A stretch of DNA of 64,000 nt from Oegoconia quadripuncta (Eukaryota; Arthropoda; Insecta; Lepidoptera; Autostichidae). Both the position numbers and the translations under genes were made by a program. The stretch covers positions 15,393,151-15,457,150 of the forward strand of contig OX438755.1 in assembly GCA_949316235.1 (NCBI GenBank), given 5' to 3'. The notes under the pieces were generated by a model. That model had not been told where the DNA came from. It ran no database searches and worked only from the letters and a program-made list of their open reading frames with translations. Shown here in pieces: positions 2,042 through 62,987 of the stretch. Each line of letters begins with the position of its first letter. The stretch's first letter is position 1.

Positions 2042-2129
2042 CTGGAGTCAATGTACCATCTCTCTACTTCACCTTCGTGTATGAAATAAAGAACAGGAAA
2101 TATGTCGCCTTCTTCTGCTATCCACTTCC
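2042..2129 (-). CDS. Gene A exon 26: CNBD IV beta-roll
   Basis: 88 bp, phase 1 to 2, acceptor cttccag, donor GTAATT. Encodes [20 protein letters not shown], directly following FPG of exon 25 and matching the EGD...YFI..GEV pattern of a CNBD. The next exon, which should carry the phosphate-binding cassette, was not found in 1-2041 and is probably outside the window. Confidence 0.8.
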
Positions 2130-5100
2130 CTGGAAGTTAAGATTTTATATATGATATATATATTATGATAATCGATATGTCGACTACTGAATGTCGGCGC
2201 TACTGTAGGTAACTCTCACTATGTTGGATACCATTTTAATTCTAGTTAGCCAATGACATGCAAAGAGGCTTTAAGAGGAAAGGATGCTGATTGTGGAAAT
2301 ATTAAGTGGAATAACTTTAAAAATACTTATTGATCAATGAAATATAGGACGGCCCATAAATCTAGCGGACAGCAGCCTCTACCCTCGAAACCAACAGTTT
2401 CGGGTTCGAATCTCGCTTTGGGTAAATATTTGTGTGATGAATATGAACATCCATTCCCGAGTTATGTATGTTTGCACATATTTATTCGCCGTTATCCAGT
2501 ATGGTTTTGCCTAGTTTAAGAATAGAAAATTGGTATTTTGTAAAATCAATACTAAAGATAAAAACAAAATACTAACCTGGAAAAATCACCATCCTTTTCA
2601 TTCGCACAACAACTTGTCTCAAAAAATGCTTTGGGAGATCCCGAAACACTCGTACGTGTAACAAATGATGCAAATAAAGCTCACTGTATATATCTTCGCG
2701 AAGACACTGATGGCCTTTTAATGCCATTTCTGGTAACCAGTGCCCTGAATTGAAAAGTAGAATAAAAATCAATTACATAAATGCTTGTCGTACCTATTAT
2801 GGAAGCAAACGTATAAACCTAATACCTAGAGATTTTACATCATGTTTTTCTAAATAGTGAAGTGGTTCATCTTTTGAATAGAGAAAGTTTAGTACTGCCT
2901 ATGAGTGAGTGTGGTACTTAATCACGAAACATTAAACACGAATAACGGCATCCCGGAATAATCCACGAACATCTGATTGCAATGTATAGTTTTTATTTTT
3001 TATTAAGTTTAAGTTGGTTCTATCAGTGGAAACCTCTAATTGGCTTTCAGTTTCTAAGTTTAAGTGATAATTTGTGAAACAGCTGTTGGTTTTCCCAAGA
3101 AAATAAAATAAAATAAAAATAAATCCCAAAATCACGCAACCACGAGAAACAATTATAATAATAATAAATAACGTCGTTAATTTCGTGTAGGCGAGATTTC
3201 GTGGTAAATTGATTCATGTAGAATAATTTAGAGTAAACGATTTTAGTGATGGCTTGAGTTCGTGGTGAAAATACTTATTTTTTCGTGGTTGCGTTATTCC
3301 GGGATGCCGTTAATCGTGTTTAATGGTTCGTGATTAAATACCACACATGTGATTTTACATCCCAGGGATACTTTGAGATGCTCCATGCAATACAAGATTT
3401 CCAGGAGCCGAGCTATCGTGCCTACAATGTCCCTAAACCCGTTTCATATAGTTGACCACACATCAGACGTAACAGTTCAACCTTTGGACCGTCTGTGGGT
3501 TGTATGTCAGCTTATAATCGCAGTATTACGCATAATGTGTGGTCTACTGTATAATAGAGGAAATATATATTACTAGCTTTCCGCCCGCGGATTCGCCTGC
3601 TTAGAATAACTTAATCCTTTAATTTGTTTATTCCTCGGGAACTACTCACTTTATAGGGATAAAAATAAACGTCTTAGTTCAGGGTATGCTCTACCTATGT
3701 ACCAAATTTCATCCAACATCCGTTTCGCCGTGATTGAGCAACAAATAAAGAAACATGGGAACACCAATAAAAAACTGGTAGGAGGAAGTCCCGTAACGCC
3801 GGACGGCACCTAGCGTCGGACACTCGTACCATCTCGAGAAACCACAACGCAATTATAATGTTGGTGAAAGGGGCGCGGGGGAACGAAACTAGATAAGATC
3901 CGTTGACGCGGTTTGCCAGTGAGGCGCACAGCCGCGGTGGGAGCGGTCGATTACTGTTTTTGGCGGAAAAGAGTTGTGTCACGCAAATTACAAGTGAGTA
4001 TTCCAATATAATTCGTAAATTGTGAATGGCTTTATTAATTAGCTAAACAGTTTTAGTATGAAATAGGTAATTTTAGTTCTTTATTTCCTATTGCCGGACA
4101 CGAGGATATTCCTTAACACCGGAGAGTTTATAGGTTGCCTTATTTACTAAGATATTATACTTTTATAATAATGACTGTTTGTTGTTTTACAGGATAGAAG
4201 CAGGAAAATATTTAAAAATCGAAGACACAAAAAGAAAGGAAAATGGGAAATTATTAATTTTTAAATACATATCTAATATAGGAAAAAACTTTTGATTTTA
4301 TATTTTGTTCAGTTAACTAATCCATAAAAAAATACATATTTCTCGAAGCAGTTTTTATTTTATTTTTAAAAACCTTAGCTGTTCGCCACTAGGGGACTTC
4401 CCCCTACTGCTAAGCGGCCTTAGAACACTTAAAACGTGCAATAAAAGCAAATTAGAATTGGCTATTGCGATAATGTTGTTTATTTTTATAAAGTGCATTA
4501 AATAGAATCTACGATATCTAACTGTAGATTTCAAATTTGAAATCATACTGAATCAAAAATATTGTGGGTAAGAGTGGCTAATATGTAATATACATATATA
4601 AATTTAAATTAATTTAGGCCAATGGCCATGTAATATAGGGTTAATTTTGGAAAAAAAATTGTCTCGTAATAGTGACAAATTCTGTTGGACATAGGCAATT
4701 CGTGTTATATGTGCCTACATTATATTGGGTCTTTACCTATGAAATTGGAGTTTTTTTCTTGGTTAATCATATGTACCTACCTATTCCTGCGATTTTCAAA
4801 GCTATATCCAAATTTGTTTTTTATTTGGAAAATGGAATATTATTTCAAGGTTTCACATGAAATATTTTTTAATTTCTGGGATTTTTTTTATGTATGACTG
4901 GATTCGCGTTTGACCACAATCTCATCCGATGGGCTAAATCACATAATAAAAAAAATTTGAACGGAGCTCTTTTCATGTGCTTCCTATAATGATTACTTAG
5001 ATTCGCTGAAACTTTTAAAAATTAACGCTGCCTATACTTAACTTAATGTTATACGATAATACACACAAAGTTTAGCTAATTTGGATTTGCCTTTCCCAAA

Positions 5101-8100
5101 AAAAAAAATGTTTGTATTGAGAAAACAGTCTTAATGAAATTCTTCATACAAAACGCCAATTTCATAGGTAAGGACCTGATATTAATTTATTAGTTGTGCG
5201 AAGTTAGTACTGGCCGCCCACTTTTAAAGCCTGGGTTAAACCAGATACAGCACAGCGCGTTGCAGCATTATGACGTTGTAATGTATTAGCAGATACACAC
5301 AGGCAAAGCCCTCAAACACAACAGCTGTCATTTTTCGCTATGGGTTAAAAAATTAAATACATTTACCGAAATTTTGTTAATAAAAAAAACCGTCTTCACT
5401 GAATCACCCTATAATTTTATTGATATGCTCGTATCACTCAATCAGTTATTTTCTATGTTCTTTTATTTCTGCTATATGAAAAAATATCTTTCGAAGTCGT
5501 CGATCGCTACAAAATGTAATCAATCTACATTATAATCACTGTTACATATTGGCGCCGACTTAGATAGACATGTATTTTACACTTTTTGGTATTTTCTTTA
5601 TGATCTTTCTGATCGCACTAATATGATCTTTATGATCATATTAGTGCGATGGCGACCCTCGTCGCTCCTACAGGTTAGGTAAATAGTTGTGGTATACCAG
5701 CTCGACCTGACCTGACCTCGATTGATAATCACACCGACCTTCTCTACACTTCTTTCATACAAACCCAAACTGTATTTACTCGTAGTTTCTCTGTGCAAAA
5801 ACCACACAATCGTCTAAAATGTAATGCTATTCTGCTGATTACAAAAAAAAATACTGAAATAAAATACTGAAATAACAATGGGACGAACTTGACAGTATTC
5901 GCTTTCATTTACGAATAGAACCACGTGAATCAACCGCCAAATCTCGGAGATACATATGTATATATGTACATACACAAAACATGCAAACGGTCGAATTGAG
6001 AACCTCCTCCTCTTTGTAGTCGGTTAATAAATACAGTTTGATCGTGCTAATGTTTTAATTTTCATGTACAATTTTTGAAAAGGTGGAAAAGATGCTATAC
6101 TATGGAAATGAGGTTACACATTGCTACTTGCTGCTACGCGTGTTACGCGCTGCTACGCGTTGCTACGAGCTGCTACGCACTGTGTTGTGCTGGGTCTGGT
6201 TTGACCCAGGCTAACTAAATAACAATTACAAAGTGATTATTTTAACCTTTATTCCTCATCCAGGATAAATTATTGTATTGTATAATAGCTTGCACTAGAG
6301 ATTTCGTTACTTTATTGTTTTGTAGAAACATGATGTAACTTTTCATGGAATAGTCATATTTGTACATTTCCCTAAATTTTGCGTAAATTGTACTGGCAGC
6401 GATGCTCAACAACCATATCCTGACAATGACTATGATATTCAAAACTGCAACTTTGTAATATACCTGTTTGACGGTTACGGGAACTATCTGAAATTATATA
6501 AAAAAAAATATATTTTTAATGCACAACAGGTTAGCACTTGATTTCAATCACACCTGATATCAACTGATGATATGGCCGGAATCCCATATTATTTGGGCCA
6601 CTGGTTATCTTATCTTATCTCTGACAACCGGGGCACAACATTGCTGTTTGGTGGCAGAATTAGTTTTTTGACTAGTGTTGTTCATCAATGCCTGACAATA
6701 AGCAATAGATATATCCTTCATATCACACAGACTAATACGGATATTCATTGTTTGTCGGTATAAAAAGATAATAGTATATTTCACCACGAAACCCCCTCGG
6801 AGACTAGCTATCTTATCTCAAACAGTCTGAACACAACAATGCTATAAACATTGCGGTGGTAGCTAGCCAGATGAACATTTAATACATATCAATTGAAAAT
6901 AAGAAAACCCCTGAAAGACTATGATTTAATTTTAAATGTCCGCCTGGCTAGCTACCACCGTCTTATCTAAGTCTGCCGCGAAACAGCAATGTAAATAGCA
7001 TTGATGTGTTCTGGTTGTCAGAGATAAGATAGCCCGTCCCCCAAATAAGATGGGGTTTTCGGGTAAGTACGCTTCCACAATCGGTTTCATCTTCACTTTA
7101 AATCAAGTGTAATTAAGGTCAAGTGTTAACTCGTTATGCATTAAAAAAATACAAATCAACCAAGAATATCTATTAGAAGCTAAATATCTACGATCCGCTT
7201 AACCTGTTTTCTTTAAGAACGGCTAATAATGTGGCATTTAGTTTTAATATAAAAACTGTACTCAAGTCGAGCAGTGTCAAAAACACTGAAAATTTATAAC
7301 ACCTCCGAGGAAACAAATGATTATCTAGATAGGCCAAACAATCTGTGTTAACATTTAAATATCTTCGAAACGGCTGAACCGATTTTGATAAAACATATCT
7401 AAGAACCACCGCTAGAAAACCTGCTTTCAAATAAAATATAGACAGAGAGTAAAGTAACTAATAAAGTCTTTGCGGTAAAAAGAGGGTTGTTATAAACCGT
7501 CTTTTTGCGTCAGGGGTTTAAAATGCCTTGTACACAGGGTACACTTAAAATATTCAGATTTTTCATTTTTTAGTTACTGCTTATTCAAAAGGCAGTGGGA
7601 TGTTTACGGGCTGATGATGATTGATTCACTAAACTCTGGAAGAGCTGGGCAATTTACTTCCCAGAGTTGCTCTCTTGCCAACCTGTGGCAATAGTGAACC
7701 TCAGGAAGCTTGTACGACTTTTCAGTCTCGCGTTCGGCTTTTGAGGTTGTACAATTTGCGAGAATTCCACTTTACGACACCGAAAATTAATTTTTAAGGA
7801 CTTTAGTCTATTTTGCTTAGGTATTTTTGTTGTATTTTGTAAACTGCATTATGAGATAGGAGTACCTATCCTATTACATGAAACTGTTTTGTGTACTACT
7901 TTTATCTCACTCGGTCACCATTTCACTGTGTATATTTTCACATTTCATGTAATAATAATATGTGTGTCGCTAAATGGGTCAAATAAACGATTCTTATTCT
8001 TATTCTTACAAGTGGTGTATTCACCAATATTACGTAGTGTTAGTAATCTATTACTTACAATATCCATATCAGTGACAGTAAGCATAATAATGGCGTATAA

Positions 8101-11100
8101 TATACCCAGAACGTGGTCCATATACCATTGTTTCGGAATGACATAATATTTCTCTACTAGGTGACCTGACGTATCAGGCTTCGAAAAAGTTAAACGCCAG
8201 CAACCTGTTAACATATTCTGGTTGTCAATTGTTAGACTTTGAACCCTGTATAAATATCAAATTCGTAATTAATCAAACTCATTGGTTATACTGGGCCTAT
8301 AATAGAAGTTATTGAGCAAGCGGCTGAAACTCTACAGTCTACTTTATGAGTGATAGGTGAATATTCTATTAGTAATCTGAGGGGAGATCTGTTCCATTTA
8401 CAGGGTGAATTTGAATTCATGTAATTCCCATAAATTGGTGACACCACTCTCAATTCTCCAAGGAACCATAGTCGAATTCGATCAAAAAATTTTGATTATA
8501 TATACAAAGCAGAAAGAGATATACGATGCGAATGTCGATGGTAGTGTTGGTAGGAGAAGACCACAGCGAACGTACCATGATCAAATTGGCCAAGTCAAGA
8601 GTACTCTAAACCGGCAAGCATGTATGAACAACCGTATGAGAGTGAATGAAGCAAAAGAGGTGTGTCAGGATCGTAGCAAGTGGAAGTCTATGGTCTCTGC
8701 CTACCCCTACGGGAAATAGGCGTGACTTTATGTATGTATACAAAGTAAACCATTCCGAAACCAGTCTTAGTTAGCCGAGTATCTTTAATTGCTCAACGGC
8801 AAGTGTGTGGGTGTTTGTGACTGAGAGAGTAGGTACAAAATGTGGTTGAAATGTAATAAAAAATTTGTCTTTCTGTGTTTATGCAATAAAAATAACAATA
8901 CAACTTGTTAAAGGTATTTAAAATTAAGTGACATGATTGCACCAAGTAAGTTAAATATATTTTTATCTATACTAAAACTATATATTTTTTTTAAATGGCA
9001 GTAGCGCATGTGTAAATGTATTAACTTATAAAATATATAAGTATAAAATACCTCCTATCCTTTTATGTGGTAAATCCCAGTTATCAAAGTTGATGGTTTT
9101 ATTGATAAATGGTGGCAAAACAGGTTTTGAGTAGATTTCCTCTGAAAAACATTACAACTTGTAAATTACATCGTTGCTAGGTACCGCTGTACCGGTGACT
9201 TTTTTTACCGTAAGAAAAAAATAGGGCATATTAGGTGAGTAAAATAGAAGTTATTGGTATAGGCAGTTTAATTTTTTTTTTCAAAATCATCATCGACTCA
9301 ACCGCCGCCGGCCGGAGATTGATATGCGACAGACGGGTTCATTTAATTGGAACGCATATGTTATATAAGTTTTTCTATTTATATAATTTAATTATTTAAC
9401 TACTATTAACTTTATCTATACTTTTACTATTACTATTAATGTTATCAAAGTAAATAAATTTCTTTCTTTCTTTATTTCTTTCTAATTATGTGGAATAGGC
9501 TACAAACGCGACCGTCAAATGACACAAAGCTTAATTCGATGGTTTTGAACAAAAAAAAAATTAAACTACCTATGCTAATAGCTTCTTATCTCACAGGCAG
9601 TGAAAATGTTGATTATGTAAAAAAAAAAGTATTTGTCGTACTTTCAGCTGCTCTGCAACCGACGTATATCCAACCACAGGAGATTGCGTTTAAAAGTAGC
9701 AACAGACATATACATTTCAGAAATAGTAAAGAATAGTTATCCTGAAAATTGATACACAATAAATAAAACAAAGCATCGTATCGGCCCTCTCAAATTGTAG
9801 GTAAGACAAAAACTACAATTATTATTGCCTTTTTGTAAACATACTACATAAATTAAATATACAATATAAATTAGAACTAACCTGGAAATATTTGCAGAAA
9901 TGTTTATAAAATTTTAAGAACAGATGCAACCTAAGCAATCTGGCTAAATGAAAATACCATATTGGGGTGAACCAAGAAACTGGTGGAAGTACAAATGATA
10001 TAATGTCCAAGTAGAATACTATTTGAGTGAACCTTTGTAACCTCAAAAATTTAAAAATGCATTGGTTACCATCAATCACGAGGTGCATCTGTAATGAAAG
10101 GATAAAAATATAAACTTGTCGACACCAGTGTCAGTTGGAAACTCTATTTTCGAAGTTGTAGGCGAGTATAGACACCTTCCGGACCCTAGGCACAACTTAG
10201 ACATACTCTATAGGACAAGAGGCCAATCGACGTATCCAAATCGGATACCTCAGTGCTTGAAGACAAAAGACTTTTTAAATGCCCTACCACCAACCAGACC
10301 GAGTACTAAACATGTACCCCGCCGGGGATGGAACTCGCGATCTCCGATTCTTAAACCTGATGTTGTTCACATTGAGCCACGGAGACGGTTAAAAAATGTG
10401 GTGGCCATTTGTCTAACAATCGATTTAGACTGACGCTGGAATGACGCCAGCATAATTTAGTTAGATTGATTTTCTTAAGCAATTTCACCCGTACTTCTTG
10501 TACAACAACTACCAAAGTTCATTAAAACTTTTATGCGACTTACACCCTTTTTGAAAAAAAAATTGAATTGGACTTCTAATAATAAATACGGCTGAATTTA
10601 GCATGTTAGGCAAATCGATCTCACTTGATTACTCGTATTGAATTCCGTGATAATAGGTTTGCCTGGAAGAGATCGCTGTTAGCGATAAGGCCGCCTAATT
10701 TGTAGTTTCTATAAGATACTTAAATGTACCTTCCTTATTTAAACAATAAAGCGTATTTGATTTGATCGATCACCCTAACATTTATATGTCAAAAATTGTG
10801 CAGAAATAGTATTTTGTTATTTGAGCAATCCCATACACTGAGCTATAACCTATTTGTGCTACTACAGCACACATTTCCTGGGCCAGTCTGGTAAAAAGAT
10901 TTAATATGTCTAATGAGAAATCGTGGGTTATGTGGTCCGATTCCAACTTGTCTCGTCCCATTGAAGGCATAGCTAGTAGAAATTTGACCTGTCCAATGAA
11001 CACTTACGTAATGCTAGAACACACAAAGTGGAATTCAGCTATTTCGAAAATGTCAAAAAATTGGGCAGAAATAGTGGACTCCTTCGGCTGATATGATGAT

Positions 11101-25997: not shown

Positions 25998-26041
<44 letters not shown>

Positions 26042-44477: not shown

Positions 44478-44651
44478 TATTCAACCCCTTATTCAACTAC
44501 TTCTCATAAACCAAAGTTCGAATCAATAAAAGTAAAATTTACTTTCCAACGTTTATGTGACGTTTGACTTTAAACAAAACTGGATTACTCTTCTTCTTTT
44601 TTCCTATTATTGGCAATTGCAAACCTTATCGGGAGAAATTTCTGCCAGTGT

Positions 44652-45050
44652 TCATTCTATGCCTGAATCCTGAATCCGATGGGAAATTTTTGATCCGTGG
44701 TTTCCGCATGTAAAAGAATAGAACCAACCCATCTCTTCCTGTTCCATATCTATAGACTTACGCGATAGACTCACCGTGTGCATTTGTGCGTCGATGACAA
44801 ACACATCATATTCTTGAGGAACATAATGCGGCCACGGGTATAACATTATCTGTGGCATCGTAGAGGTCCTGTAGCGTACAATTGTCGGCACATGCAGTGC
44901 AGCATAGAAGTTGCCCCAAAGTTTGTGATACCACGATGGCGACGAATCGGTAGTTCTCAGGACCGTGCGCACTATAAAGGTGATATATTTTGTGGATGTT
45001 GTATCAAGTACGAGTTGTTTGGAATAATCTTTTGGGATATCTCTGACCAC
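44652..45050 (-). other. 132-codon frame in a repeat, upstream of gene A
   Basis: Its ends are dispersed-repeat sequence (CCCATTTAGGATAAAGGTTATG near 45050; AAGAATAGAACCAACCCATC near 44713, as at 60687). The middle (WYHKLWGNFYAALHVPTIV) matches nothing I know. Probably not a host gene. Confidence 0.3.
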
Positions 45051-45240
45051 CCCATTTAGGATAAAGGTTATGAACTTGTGTATGTATGTAAATTATCAGA
45101 AATTTTAATAGATAAAAAAAAAAGTTTATTTTCGACTTTAGTAGGTATAAACTATAGACTAAGGTTGGGATCCCCTACTTGCCCGCTCTTCCATATCATC
45201 TAAATGTTACATGTTGGTTAGGTTAGAAAATAGATGTTTT

Positions 45241-45437
<197 letters not shown>

Positions 45438-45737
45438 GCATAATTAAGATGACTGGTCGGTTTTGTTTTATATTATCCATGTAGTCATTTTCAGGAGCTA
45501 AAGATTAATGGTTGGGTGCAAGCAACTATTCAGAATACAAACCCAGATTCACTGCACGCTTAAAACAAAAGTGTAACTAAAACCATGAACACACTAAATG
45601 AAAGTTGACACACGAAAACTCAATTTTGTTTTGTTACATGTCTTGTTTACGGACTTGTGACTATTGTGAAGTTTAAATATTGATTTATTTATTTGTTTCC
45701 CTGTAAATTAGATTTGTTGTGTCGCACAATCGATACA

Positions 45738-45893
45738 ATGACCGAGAGGAGGAACACGGGCACAATAACCGACAAAGAAGAAGAGGAGGACGAAGAACCA
45801 CAGCCGATCAATTGGATTAATATCATATTTTTGCCTTTCCATCCCGTTTTCAAGAGGATTATATTATTCGCAGTGATAATAAAGTGTACATTG
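45738..45893 (+). CDS. Gene B exon 1: N-terminus and S1, unit I
   Basis: ATG at 45738, 52 codons, donor GTAAGT, phase 0. Acidic run EEEEDEEPQP followed by WINIIFLPFHPVFKRIILF. An in-frame TTG upstream is not a start; the ATG is the position aligned with gene A's start. Confidence 0.86.
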
Positions 45894-51800: not shown

Positions 51801-54800
51801 CATGTGACTCTATTACTACCTCGGCCCTAGACTAATTAAAAAAATTAAGGGTAAAAAAGTAGGAAAGAAAGCTTTTTTGAGTGTAGTAAGCATAGCCGGA
51901 TTTGATTACTATAGTGGCAACTTGTTTGAATAAATTCGAAATCAGTAACAATGATCTGACCAGTGTGTGACTGTGCGCTTATTGTTATGAGATAACAATT
52001 TCGTGAAAATGGGACGAATCATCGTTGTTGTCATATCAGTGTATACTCGAATTATCCTATAGACTATTTAGAATATTTATTAGAATTGCAATTGTTTTAA
52101 TCATTTGTCATATTTCACTGTCATGTGAAATTTTACCCATCATAGATATCAGCATCATCGTTTGTACTAATTTCCCCCCGAGGGCAAGTAATTATACAAT
52201 TTAGGTAACCATACGTCTACTATTTAAAGTAAACATACTGAGGGGTGATTGATCGTGAAAGAAGGAATGCAAGTTTTTGTTTTTATCGCGAGGACGAAGG
52301 AATCAATTCTTGTACCGTTTATAATGAACTACTTATAATGTATTATCGTTGTAGACATTACACTGATAATTTAAGTGATAAATAAGGTAATAAATATGCT
52401 AATAAATAAGGTATTTCTTTTTTCAATTTCAGCTGGAAGAAATAAACAAAGAATTGACGTTTTACATACTAACGCTGACATTGTCATGTCAGTATGCCAT
52501 GAACCATTTACTTACTGAAGCAACGCCTTTTACTTATTCGGAATTAGTAATATGTATACTATTCATGATGCTGGGTGACATTTATAGCATTGCGTTGTTA
52601 ACACCCAAGTTATTTGCTGAATCTGTAATGCGCGTGCGTCGAGTATCCTCGTTTCATTCTCGCGTTACGAGGATAATAGAAGATACTAAACGAAGAAATC
52701 CTTATAATAGTGCACACACCTCGGTGGAAAATTTCTACTCTCTTATGTGGCGAATACGGTGTGGGGTCATTACGTTGCCTGATATTGATATATTCCCTCA
52801 ATATTTAAAAATTCAACATTATCATGAGTTGTACTGGCAATTGTTTTATCACAGCCCTATTCTTCGTACTATTTCTGAACCATGTCATCGATTTATACTT
52901 GGTGAAAATCATATTAAAATGAATGTTAAAATGCCTGGCGAGAGATTCTACGCGGGGTCACATTGTTACACTAATTTATATTATTTAAAGTCTGGCATTG
53001 TACAATTTCTTTCTTCTGATGACAGTGTATCACCTATTCTGTCAGTAACAGGCGGCACTATATTGGGAGATATCAGTTTCTATCTACCTCCTTATAGCAG
53101 AAAGGCGCTTGTACGCTGTCTTACTTACTGTGAGGTCTTTGTGTTATCCCGTATAACTATTTTGAAAATTTTGCATAAATTCCCTGAAGATCGTCGTAAT
53201 ATTATGAAACTAATACAAGAGAGAATCTCGCACGCACGTTCGTTATATGCGTGCAAAACAGATTTAAGAGGTTTGGATAGATCTCAGGACGAAGGTATTG
53301 CATGGTTCAAGAAACGATGGTGGGAAGTGTTCAATGCTATTGAAAATTGGAAGAAATCAACTAAAAAGGATGTTGGTAAATGTGAATTGCCACCAGAAGA
53401 GGCGCCATATCACTGTGCTAAGTATATTGGGCAGTTGGTTTTATGTACCGAGGTAGAATTAAAACGGAATACGATATTTGCCAGTGTCAATTTTCCATGG
53501 ATTTTGATGCCTAACTCAACATTTTGTTCCGCTTGGGATAAATTTATAAAAACTATTGTGTTTTTAGTCATTATTATTTATCCACCAAATATAACCAAAA
53601 GAGTTCATGCGGCATGGTTTAAGATGTTTAAATTTGGTGTGGATTTAATATATATATTAGACGTTTTTGTTTCTTTAATGACTACCACAGAGGGAAATGA
53701 GTATAGAGGTCTCAAATTTACTACCGTAATGTTGACTAGGTGTAAAACTCTTCAGTTTTGGCTTGATGTTGCATCTACAGCATGGATTGATAATATAACC
53801 GGGATGATGAGTAATGATAAATTAATAAACGTACTTGTATTCAATCGATTGATCAAATCTTATGTAATTTATACATCCGGATTCCATATCATTTGGAAAA
53901 GGACAGCAGACCCAATGAATAATGTAATTATTAAGACTACATTAATAGAATTTAGTGCCTTGTATATCGGTGCATATTTCTTTTACGCCCTTAATGCGTT
54001 AGTCCCTTCCTGGACTACGAACTTTTATTTTGGTACAAATGTTTGTCCAAAAAATATTAAAGTTGAATGTGGCCCAGATAAGCCCGAAGGAGGTATCAAT
54101 CTTTTCATCAGTATGATGGCAGAGATGACATTGGAAGTAACAGAGAGTGCAACGCACCTTGATTATTTCACTGCATTTATTTTATATACGTTTTGGTTTT
54201 TTTTGGTAAAATATACGCAGTCTAGACTATTGTCTGCATTCTATATGAAATATAGACAGAAGACCAACTACTATTATTTTGTTAGTAACCTCAAAAAACA
54301 TTATATTCATCATAAAATCCACCCTGACTTGTTGAAGCGTTTGGATAGGTATTTGATTTGCCATTGGAAATATTTTTGTGGTATGGATATACTGAAACGA
54401 GATATTTTAAAAGATGAACCACATGATATATATTTCAAGTTTCATGGAAGATTGGCAGAAGAAGTAATAAGTTCATCTAGAGTGTTTGCGGGCGCGGATC
54501 CCGGTCTTATAAGAGAATTGGCGCAAAAAGCGAAATTTTTATTAATGCCCAAAACTGCCACATTGCTCCTGTTCGGGTCGTATTGTAAAAATGCCACTTG
54601 GATTGTTAATGTAAGTACAAATGTATGTACACTGCCATATACTGCATGTTAGGCTGAATAGAGACCATACCAAAGGAAGTGGTAATTTTCTCATTTTAAT
54701 AGAACCTAGCCTACCAGCCGAGTTGTCAATCAGCTGTGAGCGAGACCGAGTATTGAATTAAAACCTTAAAATTTTGGACATAATTTAACAAAAAATTTGT

Positions 54801-57800
54801 TCATATTTTTTTATAGAACGGGGTTTTATATCAGATTCTGAAATATTTATGGCGCTATGGGCCTTAATCACACTAACATGCTGTATAATAATTAATAGTG
54901 GTAGCATCGTCATCGTTCTAAGCAGCTAAATAACTAACGTTATAGATAAATGATTAGATATACGCAACAAAAAAGTTTCCCAAAAAAACCTGTTGCTCAG
55001 TGAGATAGAGATTTATTGCGCGCATGGTGGCTTGCTGGTGCTCGAACAATTCAATCCTAGCAACCAAAATCAACATAAAAGTAATATCCACTCTTCTAGA
55101 CTACACCACTAGCATAAACTCTCGAATAATTGAGGTATTCAGCATCTTCCTAAGCTCCTGCAGCAATTTGGATTTCATCATATTTCAAAAATCTTCAAGG
55201 CACCCAGAAGTTCTTTGTAGTCCAGTAAAAATACATAATTTTTACGGTGTAATTTTCTATAATATTAAAGTTTCTGATTTTTGGTAGAAGGATAGAGTCA
55301 TCCATCAGTAATAGAATAAATTTTTTTTCTAAACATTCTGTAGCTTGCTTTAGGCATAGTATAGGTATATTTAGCTATAAAACCTCCGATATTAAAGTTA
55401 AACTACTGTGCACTTCACTGCCTTGTAAAAGGTGCTAAGATCTTCTAAAACAATGTTCTAAAAAATTTATCAATTTCTACTTTGCTAAAAATAGTTTATT
55501 AAGTTCTGATATTTGCTCCCGGTGAAATTTTTCATAAAAATAAAGAAGTTTTTGATAATAGTTACAGGAGTTCTAAGTACCTATATTCTCTGACGTAATG
55601 AAATTTACAGGGAAAATTTAATCTAATAGTTTATGTACATTGTATGTTATATCTATAGCAAGCTACCGATTTATTAGAAAACATTTTTATTCTATCACTG
55701 ACTTACCTGGATGATATTACGTTTAGTGCTTTGGGGACTTCTCAATTTTCAATTTTATCTATCATGCGTGATGTTGTGAGGTCAGAAACTGCTACGTCGA
55801 AAAATAGAACTATTTTAATTTTCGACATCGACAATGAATTAACGACAAATTCGATACTCGCAATACACGCGCCGCTACCTTTCAACAGCCCAACATCCTC
55901 CATCCGCCACCCTCGCACGTACTCACTGAGTAGTAGAGTCGGGAATTACAGAATTGTGCTGAATGGGTAGGGACTCAGCAGTGTTGCTGGTTTTTGCAGT
56001 AGTTGCTGCCACCAAAAAAAGAATGGGCGATTTTCCAATCGCTATCAATTATATGCTTAGGCGTGGTGGTGGATGTAGAAATTAAATTAATCTAACTAAC
56101 ATAATATAAAGCCCGAATAATAAAATATAAAAACAAAGACGCCCTTGCTTTTACTATTTTAATTTTATAAAAAAAACTAAGAGATCCTTGCTTTTACCTT
56201 TTTACTTGTGCAAACATAATATCTATAAAAGTGTGTAACAAAAATTATCGTATCAACAGGGTTTCCTCAAAAGTGAATATCACAACGACGAAGGTGAATT
56301 ATTGAAGGTGTATACAGACACTAAAGATATTTTATCATTGGGTTCGGTGTTTTTAAGCAGTATTAATCTAAAGACATACACATGTGCCACTGAATGCGAG
56401 GTAAGAACTTACTTTTCCATAGATTCCATTGAATTTGAATGGGCTTCTTTCATTCCAAAAAGCTTGGCATGTTTGTTGTAATTTATGATTATCATCTTCT
56501 TGCCCTAGTCCGAAATTATGCATTAAGATCATTCAATAAAAAATTAAAGGAATGGCTACTTAGTAACTGTTTCTACACATTGGAAGAGTATTTAATTACT
56601 GCAAGAAATGTAAACTCTAATTAGATATTATATTATTTGAAGTATAACCAGTTTTACAAATGAGTTTTGTTTATTTAATTTTGAATTTATTATTACCTAT
56701 GCTGAATTAACTGACACTGTATATTAATATAACTGGGGCTTTTTGGTGGGATCTCGGCGAGTGAAGTTGCATTTTTCTTTATAATTCTTATAATTGGTGC
56801 ATTCTAACTTTTGAAGCTTAATATTGTATTAGCATAATGGCAGAATATTGTTCAGCAAACGTTAGTGATGGTGTACAAGTGAAGGGAAGTGTAAATTAAA
56901 GTGCGTAACGAAGCTTTCGGGTTTCCCACAAGAAGCCGCCAAAATCTTTTGTAAAGTATTCTGCCACTTTACTGAAGAATTACTTGACCATGACGAGACT
57001 CTGTATGTGCCAAGTATACCACGAAGTACTTGTTTTATATATTTATTTATTTACATTATTTATTTAGTTTTGACTGAGACTGACTAATAAATTGAAGAAA
57101 TAAGAGAAATAAGACATGGCTGTATGGGCTTAGATTCCTTTGCCTTCTCCGACAGGAGTGAATAAAACTAAAAAAATGATATACCTGGCCATAATAAAGG
57201 TGCTACTAACTGTTCCGCCTGTGACGTAATTCGAGGGGATCTCGAAATAAAAAAAAAACAAAATGTTATGCGACAAAACTTTGTTGCATTGTTAAATTAT
57301 ATATTATTTTAATGACATCGGGTATATAATATAAGTTATGTTTATTTAAATTTTGAATTATTCTGACATTATACTAAATTAACTGACATTTTATTATTAT
57401 CACAACATCCGTTCAGCGGTTTCGCCGTGATTGCGCAACAAACAAACAAATAAACAAACAAACTTGGATTAATTAGATTTAAGAAATGACACCCACCTGA
57501 CCGACTCGGCAATAAGTATATTAACGTGGCTTTAGCCAAGTCGACTCAACCAGAGTGCGACCGTTTGAGGCAGTTTATTTTACCTTAGCCTTTAGATTGA
57601 GTTTTACATATTTAAACTTTATATGAGAGTAATAATTTTTCTTTAGCCATTTACGCGCAGAAATTATCTGAGGTACTCGCATAACGGAAACGAAAAACGC
57701 AGCAGCCCGCGCGCATTATACCCTGGATTAAGACATAGGATATTTTTCCGCGGGCAGATTGCTAGTAAATTTCTAATTAAGTAGGTATATTTTATTGACT

Positions 57801-60800
57801 TGTGTTTAGTAGGCCCTACTCCATTATAAGAGGGAAGGCCTATGTTATCCCTGCAGTGGGATGTTTACGGGCTGAGATGATGATGATGTTCAGTATTAGC
57901 ACTATGGTTCCAAATATACAATATAAAGGTTAAAGAAATCGTTATTTTCAGATACTTTACATAAAAATGAAAGATTTCTATGCTATCCTACAACAATATC
58001 CAGAAGAATGGAGCTACATACAGACATGTATAGACGAGTTCAAGGCCCCTTTCAATGAGATGTTAGAAAATTATGTAGTGAAGCACAAAACAGTAAGTAA
58101 GAAAATGTATTTTTCTACGCCGGTATCAAAAATTATTTCATACGAAACCAAAAACTGTTTGATATGTCATACATTACACACAAGTGTGGTGAAATATTTT
58201 CATTAGACCATTACTTTCCAATACAAATATACTAAACGAGGACCCGGAAAGCTTCCTGTAACGCATCTGTCAAATTCGACCAATAGTAAGATTTTTTTTT
58301 ATGAATGACTGGATTCGCGTTTGACCACAATCTCACCTGATGGTAAGTGACGATGTGGTCGAAGATGAAGCACGCGATCCCAGTAAATGCCTGTTCACTC
58401 TGCTCTTGAAGATCCCAAGGTTGTAGGATTCAGGAAAGACTGACGCCGGAATGGTGTTCCATGCCTTGGCTGTTCGGATAATGCATGAAGAGTCAAACTT
58501 CTTAGTGCGAATGTTGGGTATATTAACTACATACAGGTGGTATCCCTCCCCACGCCTAGTGGTCCGAAGGTGGAGGGGCGACGGCAACACTTACACCAAT
58601 CATCTAGTCCCAAACTAAGCATAGCTTGTACTATGGATACTAGATAATGGATAAACATACATAAATATTTATATAAACATCCAAGACTCGAGAATTAATG
58701 TTCGTATTCATCACACTAACATTTACCCCTCGCGGGATTCGAACCCGCTGCCGTTGGTTTCATTGACAGGTCACTATCCACTACACCAATCGGTCGTCAA
58801 TATCTTTCTATTTATTTATTTATATCCCATCACGTGTACCCAGTGCGTAGTGGTGGCTTTGTATGAGACAAGTAACTAGCCACCAGTGTTTTGTAAGTCA
58901 CCCCTGGAGGCTACGGACTTGGTTTAACGAACAAACGGTGCTATTTAAAGTGCGCTCTCTTGTTACTAGTGGTAATCCATCCAAGGACTGATCGCGCCAG
59001 ACATTGCCTAACTTCGCTAATCGAAAAAGAACAGCGAATGTGACTGCGCCACGACTGCTTCTGAGTTTTGTGTTGCAGTATCAGAAGAAATTACGCCAGC
59101 AAGTGTTCCATGCTAGACAGTCAGTAATGGTGAATGTGGAAAAGAAAGATGACAACATTACTGATACACGCTTCAATATATTTCAGTCAACTATATTTGA
59201 TGATCCGGAAAATTCGTTAGTATTAGCATAGAATATATAAAGAACAACATAGTATATATAAAAAACTAATGTTTACCTGTTTATTGTCTGCCTTAAGTAC
59301 TGGATCTTGTTACGTTAACAAGTTCTACACAGGCTCCCCAGCTTAGGGCTTTTGGCCCCAAATCTATTAGGGCGCCATATGTTTATTGGGCTTCTTTAAG
59401 GGCCCAATTTTATTTATTTATTCGAGTCTCATCCCATCAAATCAGTCTGTCATAATGAGAAAATACCTATTTGATTTCTAATACAAAAAAATATGACTAA
59501 AAAGCTATAAGTATCATCATATCACACGAAAGACGTCCACTGTTGGATAAAGGCCAGTAAGTATACTTAAGAAATATTTAATTATAGGGCCAGTTTCCCG
59601 TTGGGTTAGGCAGAGACTATTGATTTCCATTCACAACGATCCTGACATCGCCTATTTACTCCAATAAAACTATAATTTATTTAAATACTAGGTTTCCGGC
59701 CGCGGCTTCACCTACGTGGAATAACTGTATCGCCGATATGATTAAATTGTTTCATTATAGCCCGTAAACATCCCACTGCAGGGATATAGGCTTTCCCTCG
59801 TATAATGAGGGAGTATGGGCCATCGTCCACCACGCTGGCCCAATCCGGGTTGGCGACTTCACATGCCTTAGAATTTTTATTTCTCAGGCATGCAGGTTAC
59901 CTCAGGATGTTTTCCTTCACGTTTAGGAGCAGTCTAAATTTCTTGGTACATGGCCTGCCTGGGAATCGAACCCGGACCGCCCAAATTGGGAGACCGCGTC
60001 TTAACCCTGAGCCACCGACGCTCTCTCTTAACTTAACCCTGTGTAAAGATCCTCGCGACCGTTCTATTAGCACCCGATTACGGCGAAGCCAAGAGGAGGG
60101 TAATGTACTTACTGCGTCTGTATGTATGTATGTTATCACCTTACAGCCTAAACGCCTCATCCGATTTGGACAAATGAGGTGTCAATAGATTCTTACAAGT
60201 CCTGGAAGTGTCATATAGGGCATATAACGTCATGATACATCCAACATGGCGGACGCTATCAGCCTTTTGTATCAGTGTGACACACTTGACAACAAATTAT
60301 TCCAGCACTCCATCGGGTATCAAATGACGGGTCTCGACCTAAGAAATTCAAAAATAGGTATATCAATGTTTTTATAAAAACATTCTAAATAAATACTTTA
60401 AAAAAAATAGCACGTGCCAAGGGCAAGTTCTCAAAAAGAAACCCCATAAAGGCTTCCGACTCCGCCCTAAATCATTTGAGATATTTCGTCCTCTTTTTGT
60501 TTTTTTTTTATATCTGACCATTTGTCGGGTTTAAATTTTTTCTTGAAGTATGACGTGTTTATTGTGATGTTTTTATTTTCAGAGATATTCACCGTCCACA
60601 TTTGTATAGTCGGCAACACAATTAAGGTAGCAGGTCTTTATGTGTAAATATATGTAGGAGAAAGTCTAAAAGGAAATTAAGTTAGAATAGAACCAAGCCA
60701 TCTCTTCCCGTCGTAAAAGGCGACTAACGGACTTTTCACCAAAAAAACGTCTATAGTTTTGCAGGTTTCCCTGCACCCCCTGCATTTCTGTATACCTATT

Positions 60801-62987
60801 TCATACGGTAAACTGTGGATGTTGTTTCAACCATTAAACTTTTAATATTTTGTACACCCAAACACATTTGTTTGGAACATCGCTGACCACCCCATTTGGG
60901 ATAAAGGTCGAGACGTTATGTATGTAAGTTTAGTAATTTCTTTAATATATTTGATCTAACAATCTGATCTGAATGACGTTACGTATGTATGTTAGTTAAG
61001 TTTAACTTAAAATCTATCACATACACGGTCAAAGTGTAACGGAAAATATAAGAAAATCCAACCAAGATCCTTCAAGCAATATCATAAAAATTAAGCCCGC
61101 TACCTTGTGTTGCCGACTGTTCATGAACTATCGTTTGTACTCTGTTGAAGGGTTTCAAGCAATATCATAAAAATTAAGCCTGCTACCTTGTGTTGCCGAC
61201 TGTTCATGACCTATCGTTTGTACTCTGTTACATGTAATGTTCTGGCTCAATAAATGTTGAAGTATTTAATTTTTTTCCACTTTTTTACAGTTTTATCCGA
61301 GCCTGGATGTTCTTCAGAATGATAATTGTTATTGTGTCAATAGTAACTGCGTCTTTAGAAGGTTCTAATTATTAATTTTAAAAGTTAATATATTTTTTTT
61401 GTCCTACATTGCCCAAAATTAGTTTTGCAAATATCAGAGCTAATACTATAGCTCGTAATGAAATACCTAGCTGAACTGTGCCACTAATTCTTGGTGAAAC
61501 TGACAGATTAGATTTAATATTTTTTATTACTTTCTTACACAAACAAAAAAAAAACCAAAATTTCTTGTATTTTTTTAATGTGCCTAAATATAATGTATCT
61601 TATGTTCCATAATAATGATGTTAAATAAATAAATTTTATTTGTAAATTATCTTATCTTATTAGCACCAGAAGAAGTAACGCGGTTCAGTTAATGTTATAC
61701 TGTATTTTGAAGGGCGGTTTTAATGTCTCTTGATCACAGATTGAATAGTAGTATACAGGGTGAAATTTAATTGTGTAATTCTTTTTTACTGCTGACGCCA
61801 CTCCTGCTTACGAACAACTCACCACTCCACTAGGAGTCATATATAGCCGAATTCAGCCGAAAATTGCTGGATTTCTATACTAAAGGTGGTTTCAGAATTG
61901 TTTACTTTGCATTGGTAATCGAAAATTATTTGATCGAATTCGACTATGGTTCCTTGGGAAAAGTTGTTTGTAATCAAGAGGAGCGTCACCATTATAGAAT
62001 AATTACATGCATTCAATGTAAATAAAAACTGATATTATGGTAATTAATTAACTATCTGTATATACCTATACTGGTTGGGACTCGCCAACTGATTTTGCGG
62101 AAAACTGTTAACTGTTAAACTTGGTCAATTAATGTAATAAACTTTGATTAACTATATGTCGAAGACGATGAAAAATATAATATTGTCATTGTCAAGGAAT
62201 AATAAATAAATAACCAAAAAATATCCTTGGACATACACACAATGCCATCTAGTTCCAAACTAAGCAACTATAGGGTTGTGTTGTGGATACCAGATGGTTG
62301 ATATACTACACAAATACATTTTTTTTTGTAAATAAATTATTATATTATTTTTTTTATGCATAACGGGTTGGTACTTGATCTCAATAACACCTGATGTTGA
62401 GTGAAGATGAGGTCGAAGATTATAAATGAAAATTCCGATTATAAATGAATAAGTCCGTATTCATCATACAAACATGTGCCCCTAGCGGGAAACGAACCCG
62501 CGACCTTTTGTTATAGTGATCAGAGTTTCTAGCCACAAATTTTTGAACAAAGGCAAAGGAATTTGATTTTTCGGAAAAGTCGGCCGTTGTGTACCACAAA
62601 TATATGTGTATATACAAAATACAACCTATTATATTTATCTTTTCTTAGGTAACATTAATTTAGATTAATCTCAGGCCTCTATGTTGTTGATCTGTATCCC
62701 CAACGCATGCTTAAGTGTCCATGAATTTTTCAAAAATATTTTTTTGAAAAATTCTTGGACACTTAAGCATGCGTTGGGGTCAAACGGGGTTGGGGGGGTT
62801 GGGGGGGGGGTTGCGATGGTCAAAAATTTAACCCATGGCTAATGATTCGCCTTGGTTCGACATAATGCAATAATTACATACTTTCTATGTTCAAGGCGGT
62901 ATTGGAGCCTCGGTGAGATGGCCTTTGATGATGATTTCTGGTATTTGTTTTTCCGTTGGTGTCATAGACATATTATTTAAATTGTGT
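45738..62987 (+). CDS. Gene B: multi-unit CNG-like channel, incomplete at window end (gene span)
   Basis: Plus-strand paralogue of gene A with ten exons in the window (about 1,134 codons): units I and II complete and S1-S2 of unit III. The same domains appear in the same order, and each exon matches its gene A partner in phase, so the two arose by duplication with inversion after the multi-unit structure existed. Unlike gene A, no exon here is interrupted. Its pores (SCQYAMN in unit I, EMTLEV in unit II) are further from a standard filter, and CNBD II has lost both the Gly-Glu and the Arg of the ligand cassette, so cyclic-nucleotide binding is doubtful. The frame would end at TAG 59231 if exon 8 were not spliced; the GTTAGT donor at 59216 and the downstream exons at 61291 and 62908 argue that it is. 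Expected to be a membrane protein; true fourfold structure is inferred from gene A. Confidence 0.87.
45894..47539. other. Gene B intron 1
   Basis: Holds a hairpin-like CCTACCACAACGC...GCGTTGTGGTAGG at 46271-46303 and repeat fragments (47120-47175 recurs at 55645-55702). No coding evidence. Confidence 0.5.
47540..47695 (+). mobile_element. RTE-like LINE 3' end
   Basis: GCGGTTTCCCGCAATCTTTA ... GGACGTCTTTCGGCTGATAT followed by GATGACGATGATT, the standard end of these LINEs. It supplies DNA right up to the polypyrimidine tract of gene B exon 2. Confidence 0.65.
47705..47847 (+). CDS. Gene B exon 2: S1-S2 region, unit I
   Basis: 143 bp, phase 0 to 2, acceptor ttttacag, donor GTACGT. GPIYSVYPNLFW to CDPMYVIDTFLHIVH. 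A LINE 3' end lies directly upstream of the acceptor (47540-47695). Confidence 0.86.
47848..48537. other. Gene B intron 2, first part
   Basis: AT-rich; nothing recognised. Confidence 0.5.
48538..49015 (-). mobile_element. Family-1 SINE with internal insertion
   Basis: Ends match the consensus (TGCACAACGGGTTAGCACTT; GCTGGAGATCGAACCTGCG). About 160 bp (48655-48815) absent from other copies sits in the middle. Confidence 0.78.
49089..49250 (+). CDS. Gene B exon 3: S3-S4 region, unit I
   Basis: 162 bp, phase 2 to 2, donor GTAAGT. QVTEAAMKRPHLQKS then SLIILDILAVIPFVRLM (S3 signature) and IWPNILYYIEMF. S4 lacks a series of positive charges. Confidence 0.86.
49430..49605 (-). mobile_element. Family-3 SINE, partial
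   Basis: ACACTTACACC, AACTAGATAACGGATAA, TTCATCACACAAGTACATTT and GCGGGATTCG; head truncated. Confidence 0.7.
49606..50165. other. Gene B intron 3 part
   Basis: AT-rich, nothing recognised. Confidence 0.5.
50170..50480. mobile_element. Two LINE 3' fragments
   Basis: 50170-50280 is the minus-strand tail (ATTCTTTATTGTACAACAA ... GGCGGCCTTATCACTAAAAG); 50385-50480 is a plus-strand end (CCACCGACAAGAGCATGGC) as at 20740. Confidence 0.55.
50789..51122 (-). mobile_element. Full-length family-1 SINE
   Basis: T-run to GAGCCACGGAGGTGG with intact GGGGATCGAACCCGCGACC. In gene B intron 3. Confidence 0.86.
51477..51669 (+). CDS. Gene B exon 4: S5 and turret, unit I
   Basis: 193 bp, phase 2 to 0, acceptor ttttcag, donor GTTAGT. 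S5 LLIGYGYILMLLMNCIACLY, then HGLCPRC and YDWRMF. Reading past the donor gives an immediate stop. Confidence 0.87.
51670..52432. other. Gene B intron 4
   Basis: 763-bp intron, AT-rich, nothing recognised. Confidence 0.6.
52433..54610 (+). CDS. Gene B exon 5: pore I to start of CNBD II
   Basis: 2,178 bp (726 codons), phase 0, donor GTAAGT. In order: pore helix and SCQYAMN; S6 (ELVICILFMMLGD); C-linker; CNBD I ([40 protein letters not shown]); linker [12 protein letters not shown]; unit II S1 after NFPWILMPNS, S2 ([14 protein letters not shown]), S3 (FWLDVASTAWI), S4 (FNRLIKSYVIY), S5, pore helix INLFISMMAEMTLEV, S6 (FILYTFWFFLVKY), C-linker (KIHPDLLKRLDRYL) and the first strand of CNBD II (FAGADPGLIREL). 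Real start is the acceptor at 52431, not the internal TTG or ATG codons. A single exon this large among small ones is shared with gene A. Confidence 0.93.
54611..56259. other. Gene B intron 5
   Basis: Mostly AT-rich unrecognised DNA; 55645-55702 and 55935-56140 are dispersed repeats shared with 47120-47175 and 39965-40160. Confidence 0.55.
56260..56400 (+). CDS. Gene B exon 6: CNBD II core
   Basis: 141 bp, phase 0, acceptor tcaacag, donor GTAAGA. EYHNDEGELLKVYTDTKDIL then SVFLSSINLKTYTCATECE. Compared with gene A the cassette Gly-Glu is gone and the Arg is Lys, so ligand contacts appear lost while the fold core is kept. Confidence 0.9.
56735..57180 (+). repeat. Dispersed repeat shared with 43435-43830
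   Basis: Longer copy of the repeat in gene A intron 1; same order of blocks, with an AT-rich insertion near 57035. Confidence 0.7.
57800..57895 (+). mobile_element. Family-2 SINE 3' end
   Basis: CTACTCCATTATAAGAGGGA to GGGATGTTTACGGGCTGAGA. 57 bp before exon 7. Confidence 0.7.
57952..58092 (+). CDS. Gene B exon 7: end of CNBD II
   Basis: 141 bp, phase 0, acceptor ttttcag, donor GTAAGT. ILYIKMKDFYAILQQYPEEW followed by a charged helix (FKAPFNEMLENYVVKH). Same length as gene A exon 7. Confidence 0.9.
58293..58590 (-). mobile_element. Jockey-like LINE 3' end
   Basis: [20 protein letters not shown] and [20 protein letters not shown], close to the copy at 27266-27600. Confidence 0.77.
58590..58800 (-). 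mobile_element. Full-length family-3 SINE
   Basis: CACTTACACCAATCATCTAG to GCGGGATTCGAACCCGCTGC and CTACACCAATCGGTCG. Directly adjoins the LINE end. Confidence 0.82.
58960..59030 (-). mobile_element. 5S-derived SINE fragment, antisense
   Basis: Reverse strand reads GCGAAGTTAGGCAATGTCTGG and TCCTTGGATGG, the same 5S-like core as 11599-11780. It lies about 50 bp before gene B exon 8. Confidence 0.65.
59079..59215 (+). CDS. Gene B exon 8: linker between units II and III
   Basis: 137 bp, phase 0 to 2, acceptor tgttgcag, donor GTTAGT. YQKKLRQQVFHARQS to DDPEN. Without splicing the frame closes at TAG 59231. Splicing adds the first T of exon 9 to make Ser. Confidence 0.82.
59690..60030 (-). mobile_element. 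Family-2 SINE, full length, plus dispersed-repeat start
   Basis: 59757-60028 runs from AAACATCCCACTGCAGGGAT to CTGGGAATCGAACCCGGACC and GAGCCACCGACGC. 59690-59755 begins a GTTTCCGGCCGCGGCTTC-type repeat. Confidence 0.8.
60609..61205. mobile_element. Inverted-repeat element with duplicated right end
   Basis: AGTCGGCAACACAATTAAGG at 60609 is inverted as CTACCTTGTGTTGCCGACT at about 61101-61120 and again at 61183-61202, because a ~83-bp unit starting TCAAGCAATATCAT is tandemly duplicated (61072 and 61155). Confidence 0.7.
61291..61361 (+). CDS. Gene B exon 9: S1 of unit III
   Basis: 71 bp, phase 2 to 1, after a pyrimidine tract ending tttttacag; donor GTTCTA. FIRAWMFFRMIIVIVSIVTA. Identical length and phases to gene A exon 9, which is the key evidence that both genes continue past their exon 8 stop codons. 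Confidence 0.84.
61755..62012. mobile_element. Diverged copy of the 30971-31308 MITE
   Basis: ACAGGGTGAAATTTAATTGT, TTCAGAATTGTTTACTTTGC and AAAAGTTGTTTGTAATCAAG are in the same order. In gene B intron 9. Confidence 0.75.
62342..62540 (-). mobile_element. SINE fragments (families 1 and 3)
   Basis: 62342-62420 is a family-1 3' end; 62440-62530 carries a tRNA-like head (GAAACGAACCCGCGACC) with TTCATCATACAAAC. Confidence 0.65.
62698..62815. repeat. 82-bp palindrome followed by G-rich tract
   Basis: 62698-62779 is nearly perfectly self-complementary (ends CCCCAACGCATGCTTAAGTG / CACTTAAGCATGCGTTGGGG). Overlapping its right end, 62776-62811 has four runs of four or more G on the plus strand, a G-quadruplex-type pattern. 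In intron 9 of gene B, 93 bp before exon 10. Confidence 0.9.
62908..62987 (+). CDS. Gene B exon 10: S2 of unit III
   Basis: 80 bp, phase 1 to 0, donor GTAAGT. SVRWPLMMISGICFSVGVID and ILFK, aligned with gene A exon 10 ([20 protein letters not shown]). The acceptor (attggag) is weak but fixed by phase and homology. Exon 11 was not found before 64000. Confidence 0.8.

Follow-up and report, generated by a model that had tools for sequence, protein, structure and literature searches.

Five clustered genes for predicted four-module CNBD-channel chains in Oegoconia quadripuncta

The window analyzed here is a stretch of 64,000 nucleotides (C14:15393151-15457150) that is crossed by two head-to-head genes, A and B, each of which is predicted to encode four successive S1-S6/C-linker/CNBD modules in a single chain. 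Three further copies of the same exon series lie nearby on the same contig and make a cluster of five, so that the predicted family of four-module chains is real and larger than first reported. A tentative reading of the cluster is that its genes encode pseudotetrameric CNBD channels that have lost the K+ filter. Each of the linked pores would have its own non-GYG loop, with those of modules 1 and 2 little constrained, while the nucleotide ring would have been kept and the gene then copied into the five-member cluster.

Gene models A and B

A was compared with B exon by exon. The exons of modules 1 and 2 and of the start of module 3 that both genes share were found by six-frame matches between opposite strands, and the remaining exons were placed by a splice-site and codon scan. 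The flanking DNA supplied modules 3 and 4 of B in the exon order of A, and homology to B was then used to refine A, whose last two exons, at the left edge and past it, were obtained in this way. The resulting model of gene A (minus strand) has 28 exons running from 44477 to -442 and encodes 2,022 residues when an inserted retroelement is left out; that of gene B (plus strand) has 28 exons running from 45738 to 90607 and encodes 2,028 residues. The exon phases of the two genes are identical at all 28 positions, each gene has one terminal stop, and both carry four S1-S6/C-linker/CNBD modules per single chain.

The first-pass annotation had described gene A as four successive modules spread over at least 26 exons, which the 28-exon model bears out. 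It had also placed on the opposite strand a gene B with two full modules and S1-S2 of a third. This is what the window holds of B, and modules 3 and 4 follow to its right, ending at 90607. The head-to-head arrangement given there agrees with the start codons at 44477 and 45738, which lie on opposite strands and are separated by 1,260 bp. Both genes cross the window borders: exons 1-26 of A are fully inside, exon 27 (99..-6) spans the left edge and exon 28 (-290..-442) is outside. Exon borders in the models include 2042 and 62987. Genes of this pattern have 28 exons, all short but one, and span about 35-45 kb. The features of the pair are as follows, in window coordinates.

44325..44477, minus: A exon 1, start codon, N-terminus and S1 of module 1
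43261..43400, minus: A exon 2, S2 of module 1
42101..42265, minus: A exon 3, S3-S4 of module 1
39607..39796, minus: A exon 4, S4-S5 and turret of module 1
38251..38923, minus: A exon 5, first part, pore, S6, C-linker and CNBD start of module 1
33174..38250, minus: Ty3/gypsy-type LTR element of 5,077 bp within A exon 5, TSD CGTT
31689..33173, minus: A exon 5, second part, end of CNBD 1, linker, module 2 from S1 to C-linker/CNBD start, one open frame
30375..30515, minus: A exon 6, CNBD of module 2
29512..29652, minus: A exon 7, module 2 CNBD end
28778..28917, minus: A exon 8, module 2-3 linker, donor GTTAGT as in B
25753..25823, minus: A exon 9, S1 of module 3
24430..24521, minus: A exon 10, S2 of module 3
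22176..22424, minus: A exon 11, S3-S4 of module 3
20906..21094, minus: A exon 12, S5 and turret of module 3, found via homology to B
20373..20445, minus: A exon 13, module 3 pore loop (GLIGLD), proposed by automatic chaining and confirmed by homology to B
18636..18690, minus: A exon 14, S6 of module 3
16312..16473, minus: A exon 15, S6 end and C-linker of module 3
15229..15315, minus: A exon 16, C-linker of module 3
14326..14524, minus: A exon 17, CNBD of module 3
13581..13706, minus: A exon 18, CNBD of module 3 (FGQL)
12677..12805, minus: A exon 19, end of CNBD 3 and module 3-4 linker
11960..12163, minus: A exon 20, S1-S2 of module 4
9882..10088, minus: A exon 21, S3-S4 of module 4
9642..9741, minus: A exon 22, S5 of module 4
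8059..8204, minus: A exon 23, module 4 pore (TVTDMD; SVGFGN in hERG)
6247..6487, minus: A exon 24, S6 and C-linker of module 4
2577..2744, minus: A exon 25, C-linker and CNBD start of module 4
2042..2129, minus: A exon 26, CNBD of module 4
1..99, minus: A exon 27, continuing to -6
-290..-442, minus: A exon 28 with stop, outside the window
44478..45737, no strand: intergenic start-to-start region, common upstream of A and B, 1,260 bp
45738..45893, plus: B exon 1, start codon and S1 of module 1
47705..47847, plus: B exon 2, S2 of module 1
49089..49250, plus: B exon 3, S3-S4 of module 1
51486..51669, plus: B exon 4, S4-S5 and turret of module 1
52433..54610, plus: B exon 5, module 1 from pore to CNBD, linker, module 2 from S1 to C-linker/CNBD start, one open frame
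56260..56400, plus: B exon 6, CNBD of module 2
57952..58092, plus: B exon 7, module 2 CNBD end
59079..59215, plus: B exon 8, module 2-3 linker, weak donor GTTAGT
61291..61361, plus: B exon 9, S1 of module 3, weak donor
62896..62987, plus: B exon 10, S2 of module 3
64311-90607, plus: B exons 11-28, outside the window

The donors of B exons 8 and 9 are weak (-2.4 and -2.8 with a generic matrix), and these exons are placed by their homology to A. For S5 of A module 3, the choice of a hydrophobic frame at 19.5 kb was wrong and was replaced through homology to B; the same homology was used to discard wrong candidate exons from automatic chaining, among them 61834-62017 in B and 5813-5717 in A. Over the 1,120 codons of modules 1-2 and the start of module 3, A and B differ with pS 0.73 and pN 0.34, the synonymous differences being near saturation. 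The lower pN indicates that the proteins are constrained, though not chiefly in the pores of modules 1 and 2.

Exon 5 of gene A is interrupted by an LTR element that codes for gag with DUF7041 and for pol with RT, RNase H and integrase. Its LTRs (33173-33686 and 37737-38250 as aligned) are identical at 514 of 514 positions, and the insertion is fresh. When the flanks are joined as an empty site, the frame of A is restored, with KVMMR running directly into CLTHCE where B has KALVR and CLTYCE, and exon 5 is intact in the other four copies. The A allele with the insertion is probably broken. The element was overlooked in the first-pass annotation, and the single out-of-phase junction reported there for gene A was probably its exon 5, split by the element. 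Separately, a long CA/TG microsatellite (45221-45504) occupies part of the common upstream region, about 250 bp upstream of the B start codon.

Family placement and the gene cluster

Profiles of the individual modules were compared with solved structures. The module 1 profile matches hERG from S1 to the CNBD (positions 26-474 of 500, E 3.9e-13) and that of module 2 matches hERG with E 4.3e-7. The module 3 profile matches PDB 5v4s, which we take to be LliK (E 1.9e-16), and hERG (E 2.7e-16), and the module 4 profile matches CNGA3 over positions 16-452 of 460 (E 1.7e-20). The matches of modules 1 and 4 to solved channels are near full-length, and SthK is also among the profile matches. The earlier description of the modules as CNG-like units is therefore upheld by E-values of 4.3e-7 to 1.7e-20 against solved CNBD channels, beyond chance, and at the level of sequence, homology to the CNBD-channel superfamily (6TM, C-linker and CNBD) is certain. 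The Pfam cNMP_binding model exceeds its cut-off in a single module, A module 3 (1.1e-10). It is matched below cut-off by modules 1 of A and B and module 2 of A (E 2e-5 to 5e-5) and by module 2 of B (0.04), with no match in the module 4 model of A, which was incomplete at that search.

Comparison of the modules with one another from one or two sequences was too weak. With hhalign between module profiles, the best pair is modules 2 and 4 (E 2.6e-9, 19% identity) and the worst is modules 2 and 3 (1e-2); modules 1 and 2 give 2e-3. In a tree built on S6 to CNBD, modules 1, 2 and 3 each form a clade with SH-aLRT/bootstrap support of 100/100 and module 4 one with 99.7/100, and the 20 modules are split from hERG, EAG1, CNGA3, the genome's own CNGA, SthK and 5v4s at 88.3/88. 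Among the long branches and with six reference sequences, modules 2 and 4 are grouped at 83.6/79, and modules 1 and 3 do not form a split in either tree. The repeats of CNGK group as I with III and II with IV in the available text of PMC7576140; the deep branches of the present tree are only moderately supported. A CNGK-like predicted architecture is supported. Of the two origins proposed in the first-pass annotation, descent from CNGK is possible, and so is an independent fusion.

The genome searched comprised 622.6 Mb in 45 contigs. Using B exon 5 as the query and scoring the best candidates, five copies were found, all on C14, of which three lie outside the A/B pair (window coordinates).

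about -43.4k to -3.4k, plus: gene D, left of A and convergent with A
92.6k to 127.8k, plus: gene C, right of B and in the same direction as B
183.7k to 144.9k, minus: gene E, right of C and convergent with C

Of the 28 exons, 26 were placed in D, 28 in C and 27 in E. These three models were searched with the phases of A and B imposed, and phase agreement in them is no independent evidence. Exons 1 and 13 of D and exon 14 of E were not found in the guided search. Exon 13 is short in E and doubtful in C, and exon 6 of C is overlong (177 nt, vs 141 nt in A and B). None of the five models contains an internal stop, that of A being read with the element left out. The first-pass proposal of pseudotetrameric single chains is supported at the DNA level for A, B and the three further copies.

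Among the best candidates, B exon 5 also gave one distant match on contig C13 (26% identity, E 1.3e-5). Module 4 of B matches the same strand of C13 about 20 kb away (34%, E 1.9e-6), and a Pfam CNBD match lies between the matches to modules 1-2 and module 4.

C13:13259402-13279799, minus: distant relative with modules 1-2 match, Pfam CNBD match and module 4 match

This arrangement suggests that the C13 locus is an older, sixth multi-module gene. Scans of viral contig and genome contig collections gave no relatives. Two orthodox sequences were also seen in the genome. An orthodox CNBD exon (FGEIAL...RTASA) at C14:15264762-15265052 (plus), about 85 kb left of D, matches many kinase and channel CNBDs alike, and a single-module CNGA-type gene with the filter TTIGET at C20:13338380-13339400 (minus) served as a control.

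Pores, CNBDs and possible function

A pore could be read in 17 of the 20 modules (modules 1, 2 and 4 of the five copies and module 3 of A and B), and a GYG, GFG or GET filter is present in none of them; the module 3 pore is doubtful in C, not found in D and partial in E. The module 4 pore reads TVTDMD, TGTDID, TYTYLD, THTNMD and TETNLD, so that T-x-T-x-x-D is shared by all five copies, and in the alignment of A module 4 to hERG, TVTDMD takes the place of SVGFGN. At the hERG filter place, module 1 has NDFVAD in A and NHLLTE in B (an ungapped stretch, by eye). The module 3 pore has GLIGLD in A and GLIGTD in B, in an exon with 10 of 24 residues identical between the two genes and the common string GLIG-x-D. 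An acidic residue stands at the outer end of the filter in three modules of A (FVAD, VYMD and TDMD, the second placed by eye). The sole GYG of B lies in S5 and the sole GET of A in a CNBD.

At the DNA level, neither strand of 320 kb contains a codon string for T-V/I-G-Y/F-G-D/N (all Val codons but GTG being covered), and a shorter GYG/GFG pattern has 22 matches in the window vs 19 expected, which is chance level. A filter codon pattern has 210 matches across the genome, and those listed reach contig C8 and so have no bearing on C13. Of the products, called channels in the first-pass annotation, the CNBD-channel homology is certain and ion conduction is a possibility; the K+ filter that defines CNGK pores in the available text of PMC4749565 is absent from every pore read. 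K+ selectivity is not supported by the predicted pores.

Conservation was measured as mean pairwise identity among the five copies. Pore helix and filter reach 23.5% in module 1 and 17.9% in module 2, the lowest of 33 regions, and 43.8% in module 4, the best kept of the four. The module 3 figure of 30.4% is set aside here, since the exons behind its six pairs are doubtful; S6 and S5 of module 2, at 29.4% and 31.2%, are as low. The control gives the reverse order: between the genome's own CNGA on C20 and CNGA3 of PDB 8ev8, which are from different species and not paralogues, pore helix and filter are 94.7% identical over 19 residues and the CNBD 65.6%. Conduction may have been lost, given that in modules 1 and 2 the pore varies more than any other part, the reverse of an orthodox CNGA. 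The divergent pores may instead reflect divergent selectivity.

The cytosolic parts are better kept. The CNBDs rank with the most conserved regions, at identities of 66.4, 54.2, 53.8 and 60.4% for modules 1-4, the C-linkers reach 47-60% and the linker between modules 1 and 2 reaches 59.9%. Judged by eye against SthK alignments, the Arg of the phosphate cassette is found at its expected position in module 1 of all five copies, and the cassette Glu is replaced by Asp in module 1 and by Gln in module 3, each in five of five copies. Modules 2 and 4 are not canonical and carry no Arg at the aligned cassette place (by eye). Control by a nucleotide through module 1 is plausible. The S4 of module 1 has almost no positive charge. 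There are few S4 charges overall and most are in module 4, where R-x-x-R is present in all five copies.

The proposal drawn from these features, which as a whole has middling confidence, is a four-module chain around a single pathway that is ligand-modulated and conducts cations without K+ selectivity. One chain of about 2,000 residues would fold its four 6TM-CNBD modules around a single central pathway and do the job of the four subunits of CNG, HCN or KCNH channels. In the cytosol, the four C-linker/CNBD units would assemble into an asymmetric ring; on sensing a cyclic nucleotide or a related ligand, a capacity best preserved in module 1, this ring would move the S6 helices. This ring remains inferred because both structure predictions have low mean pLDDT (34.4 for B exon 5 and 35.9 for the module 1 C-linker/CNBD). 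The replaced cassette Glu of modules 1 and 3 and the missing Arg of modules 2 and 4 count against the proposal. Less certain than the ring, the pathway may carry cations without K+ selectivity, because the GYG filter is gone and, in three modules of A, an acidic residue stands at the filter's outer end. Voltage sensing would be mainly on module 4, because the S4 of module 1 is nearly uncharged and the arginines of module 4 are kept. Taken singly, modulation by a nucleotide or other ligand is rather probable, and for ion conduction the predicted pores leave the balance even.

A pseudotetramer with a dead pore is also possible, at a level short of probable. Such a protein would keep the channel-like fold without ion flow and act as a membrane-bound ligand sensor, a scaffold or a modifier of other channels. 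The lack of GYG, GFG or GET in all readable pores would be expected of it, as would the poor conservation of the module 1 and 2 pore loops beside well-kept CNBDs and a well-kept module 1-2 linker. However, the module 4 pore is fairly conserved and has its T-x-T-x-x-D in every copy, the module 3 pore exon keeps GLIG-x-D and 10 of its 24 residues between A and B, the S6 helices persist, and a change of selectivity may account for the divergence of the pores.

If the reading as pseudotetrameric channels without the K+ filter is true, these genes would add a second kind to the four-in-one CNBD proteins, one that is non-K+ or else pore-dead and sensor-only. In a literature search, neither CNGK nor four-repeat CNBD genes turned up for insects. 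With five strongly asymmetric copies that lack K+ filters, the cluster would be evidence that the repeats of such a chain can diverge one by one, and it would be natural material for learning which of the four nucleotide sites and four pore loops still matter. Divergence of this kind is described for four-domain Na+ and Ca2+ channels in the available part of PMC6259924.

Other explanations and known channels

Decay of the whole cluster into pseudogenes is very unlikely. The fresh element in gene A, the three exon positions not found in D or E and the doubtful exon 13 of C are features of that kind, but the five models (A without its element) are free of internal stops, pN is far below pS and the CNBDs are conserved. 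In addition, modules 1 and 2 are joined within a single unbroken exon in four of the five copies; in B, C, D and E its open frame measures 730-774 aa.

It is highly improbable that the genes encode an orthodox CNGK, K+-selective and cGMP-gated as in sea-urchin sperm. In the literature consulted, the animal channel with four CNBD repeats in one chain is CNGK, and the consulted part of PMC6259924 presents it as close to symmetric; its hosts according to the available text of PMC4749565 are primarily marine invertebrates, plus fish and a choanoflagellate. Like the CNGK of sea urchin, fish, cnidarians and choanoflagellates, the chains read here from DNA combine four 6TM-C-linker-CNBD repeats, and the spacing is similar, with the filter places near residues 239 and 774-782 (A and B) vs pore Thr 252 and 801 of ApCNGK in the accessible portion of PMC4749565. 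However, the GYG or GFG filter that CNGK pores carry by the same partial source is absent from the 17 pores read. The near-identity of repeats (pseudo-symmetry) described in the available text of PMC6259924 is likewise absent: the repeats are strongly diverged, modules 1 and 2 and modules 2 and 3 being barely alignable (hhalign E 2e-3 and 1e-2). Unlike CNGK, five copies are clustered in one genome. Judged on these published descriptions, the predicted chains are of the CNGK kind by build and are not CNGK by their pores. The two-repeat channels treated in the available part of PMC7576140 also link 6TM-CNBD repeats, some with reduced CNBDs, but they have two repeats and TVGYG-like filters and are not from animals.

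Among CNG (CNGA3), KCNH (hERG and EAG1), HCN, SthK and PDB 5v4s, each module aligns to some members. Unlike CNG channels (CNGA/CNGB), the chains are not single-module and have no GET-type filter. Unlike KCNH channels, they have no GFG in the pores read and no room for a PAS domain, since hERG homology starts at position 26 of the module 1 profile. Unlike HCN channels, they have neither GYG in the pores read nor a highly charged S4. GET or GYG/GFG filters of the single-module references were shown for hERG and CNGA3; EAG1, HCN, SthK and LliK, which are likewise single-module subunits, also have filters of the GET or GYG/GFG type. The four-domain Cav, Nav and NALCN channels, with four linked 6TM repeats and unlike pores, are comparable in their working; to our knowledge they have no C-linker or CNBD.

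As to the continuity of the chain, modules 1 and 2 have an exon in common in four copies, as described above, and modules 3 and 4 are linked via two short phase-0 exons in all five models. At the module 2-3 junction, the GTTAGT donor and the phase 2 to 1 are common to A and B, and directly past this donor the two sequences diverge and their tails differ in length. A single four-module chain is almost certainly encoded, as judged from the gene models. Two-module (12-TM) proteins, with transcripts ending at 28732 and 59231 and modules 3-4 as separate genes, are extremely improbable: the short open tails with stops past the conserved donor, the low donor scores of B exons 8 and 9, the in-frame ATG of A 17 codons upstream of module 3 S1 and one poly(A)-like signal within 400 nt past 28732 (none past 59231, about 1.1 expected by chance) would suit them, but the A and B tails are unlike in length and sequence right past the donor, the phase is kept, the 18 codons of B from the upstream stop to module 3 S1 include no in-frame ATG, and the module 2-3 intron in the D model, whose exons 8-10 were placed by guided search, measures only 78 nt, which leaves too little space for a gene border. 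As the outcome that would overturn its reading, the first-pass annotation named transcripts ending at 28732 and 59231 with separate promoters before 25823 and 61291; separate genes of this kind are unlikely on the latter two points, with the ATG of A on the other side.

An Rfam search gave no match. CpG observed/expected is 1.00 over the whole window, which gives no sign of methylation-driven CpG depletion. A short repeat family is dispersed on both strands, for example at 29719-29831, 44143-44318, 50791-51006 and 62347-62445.
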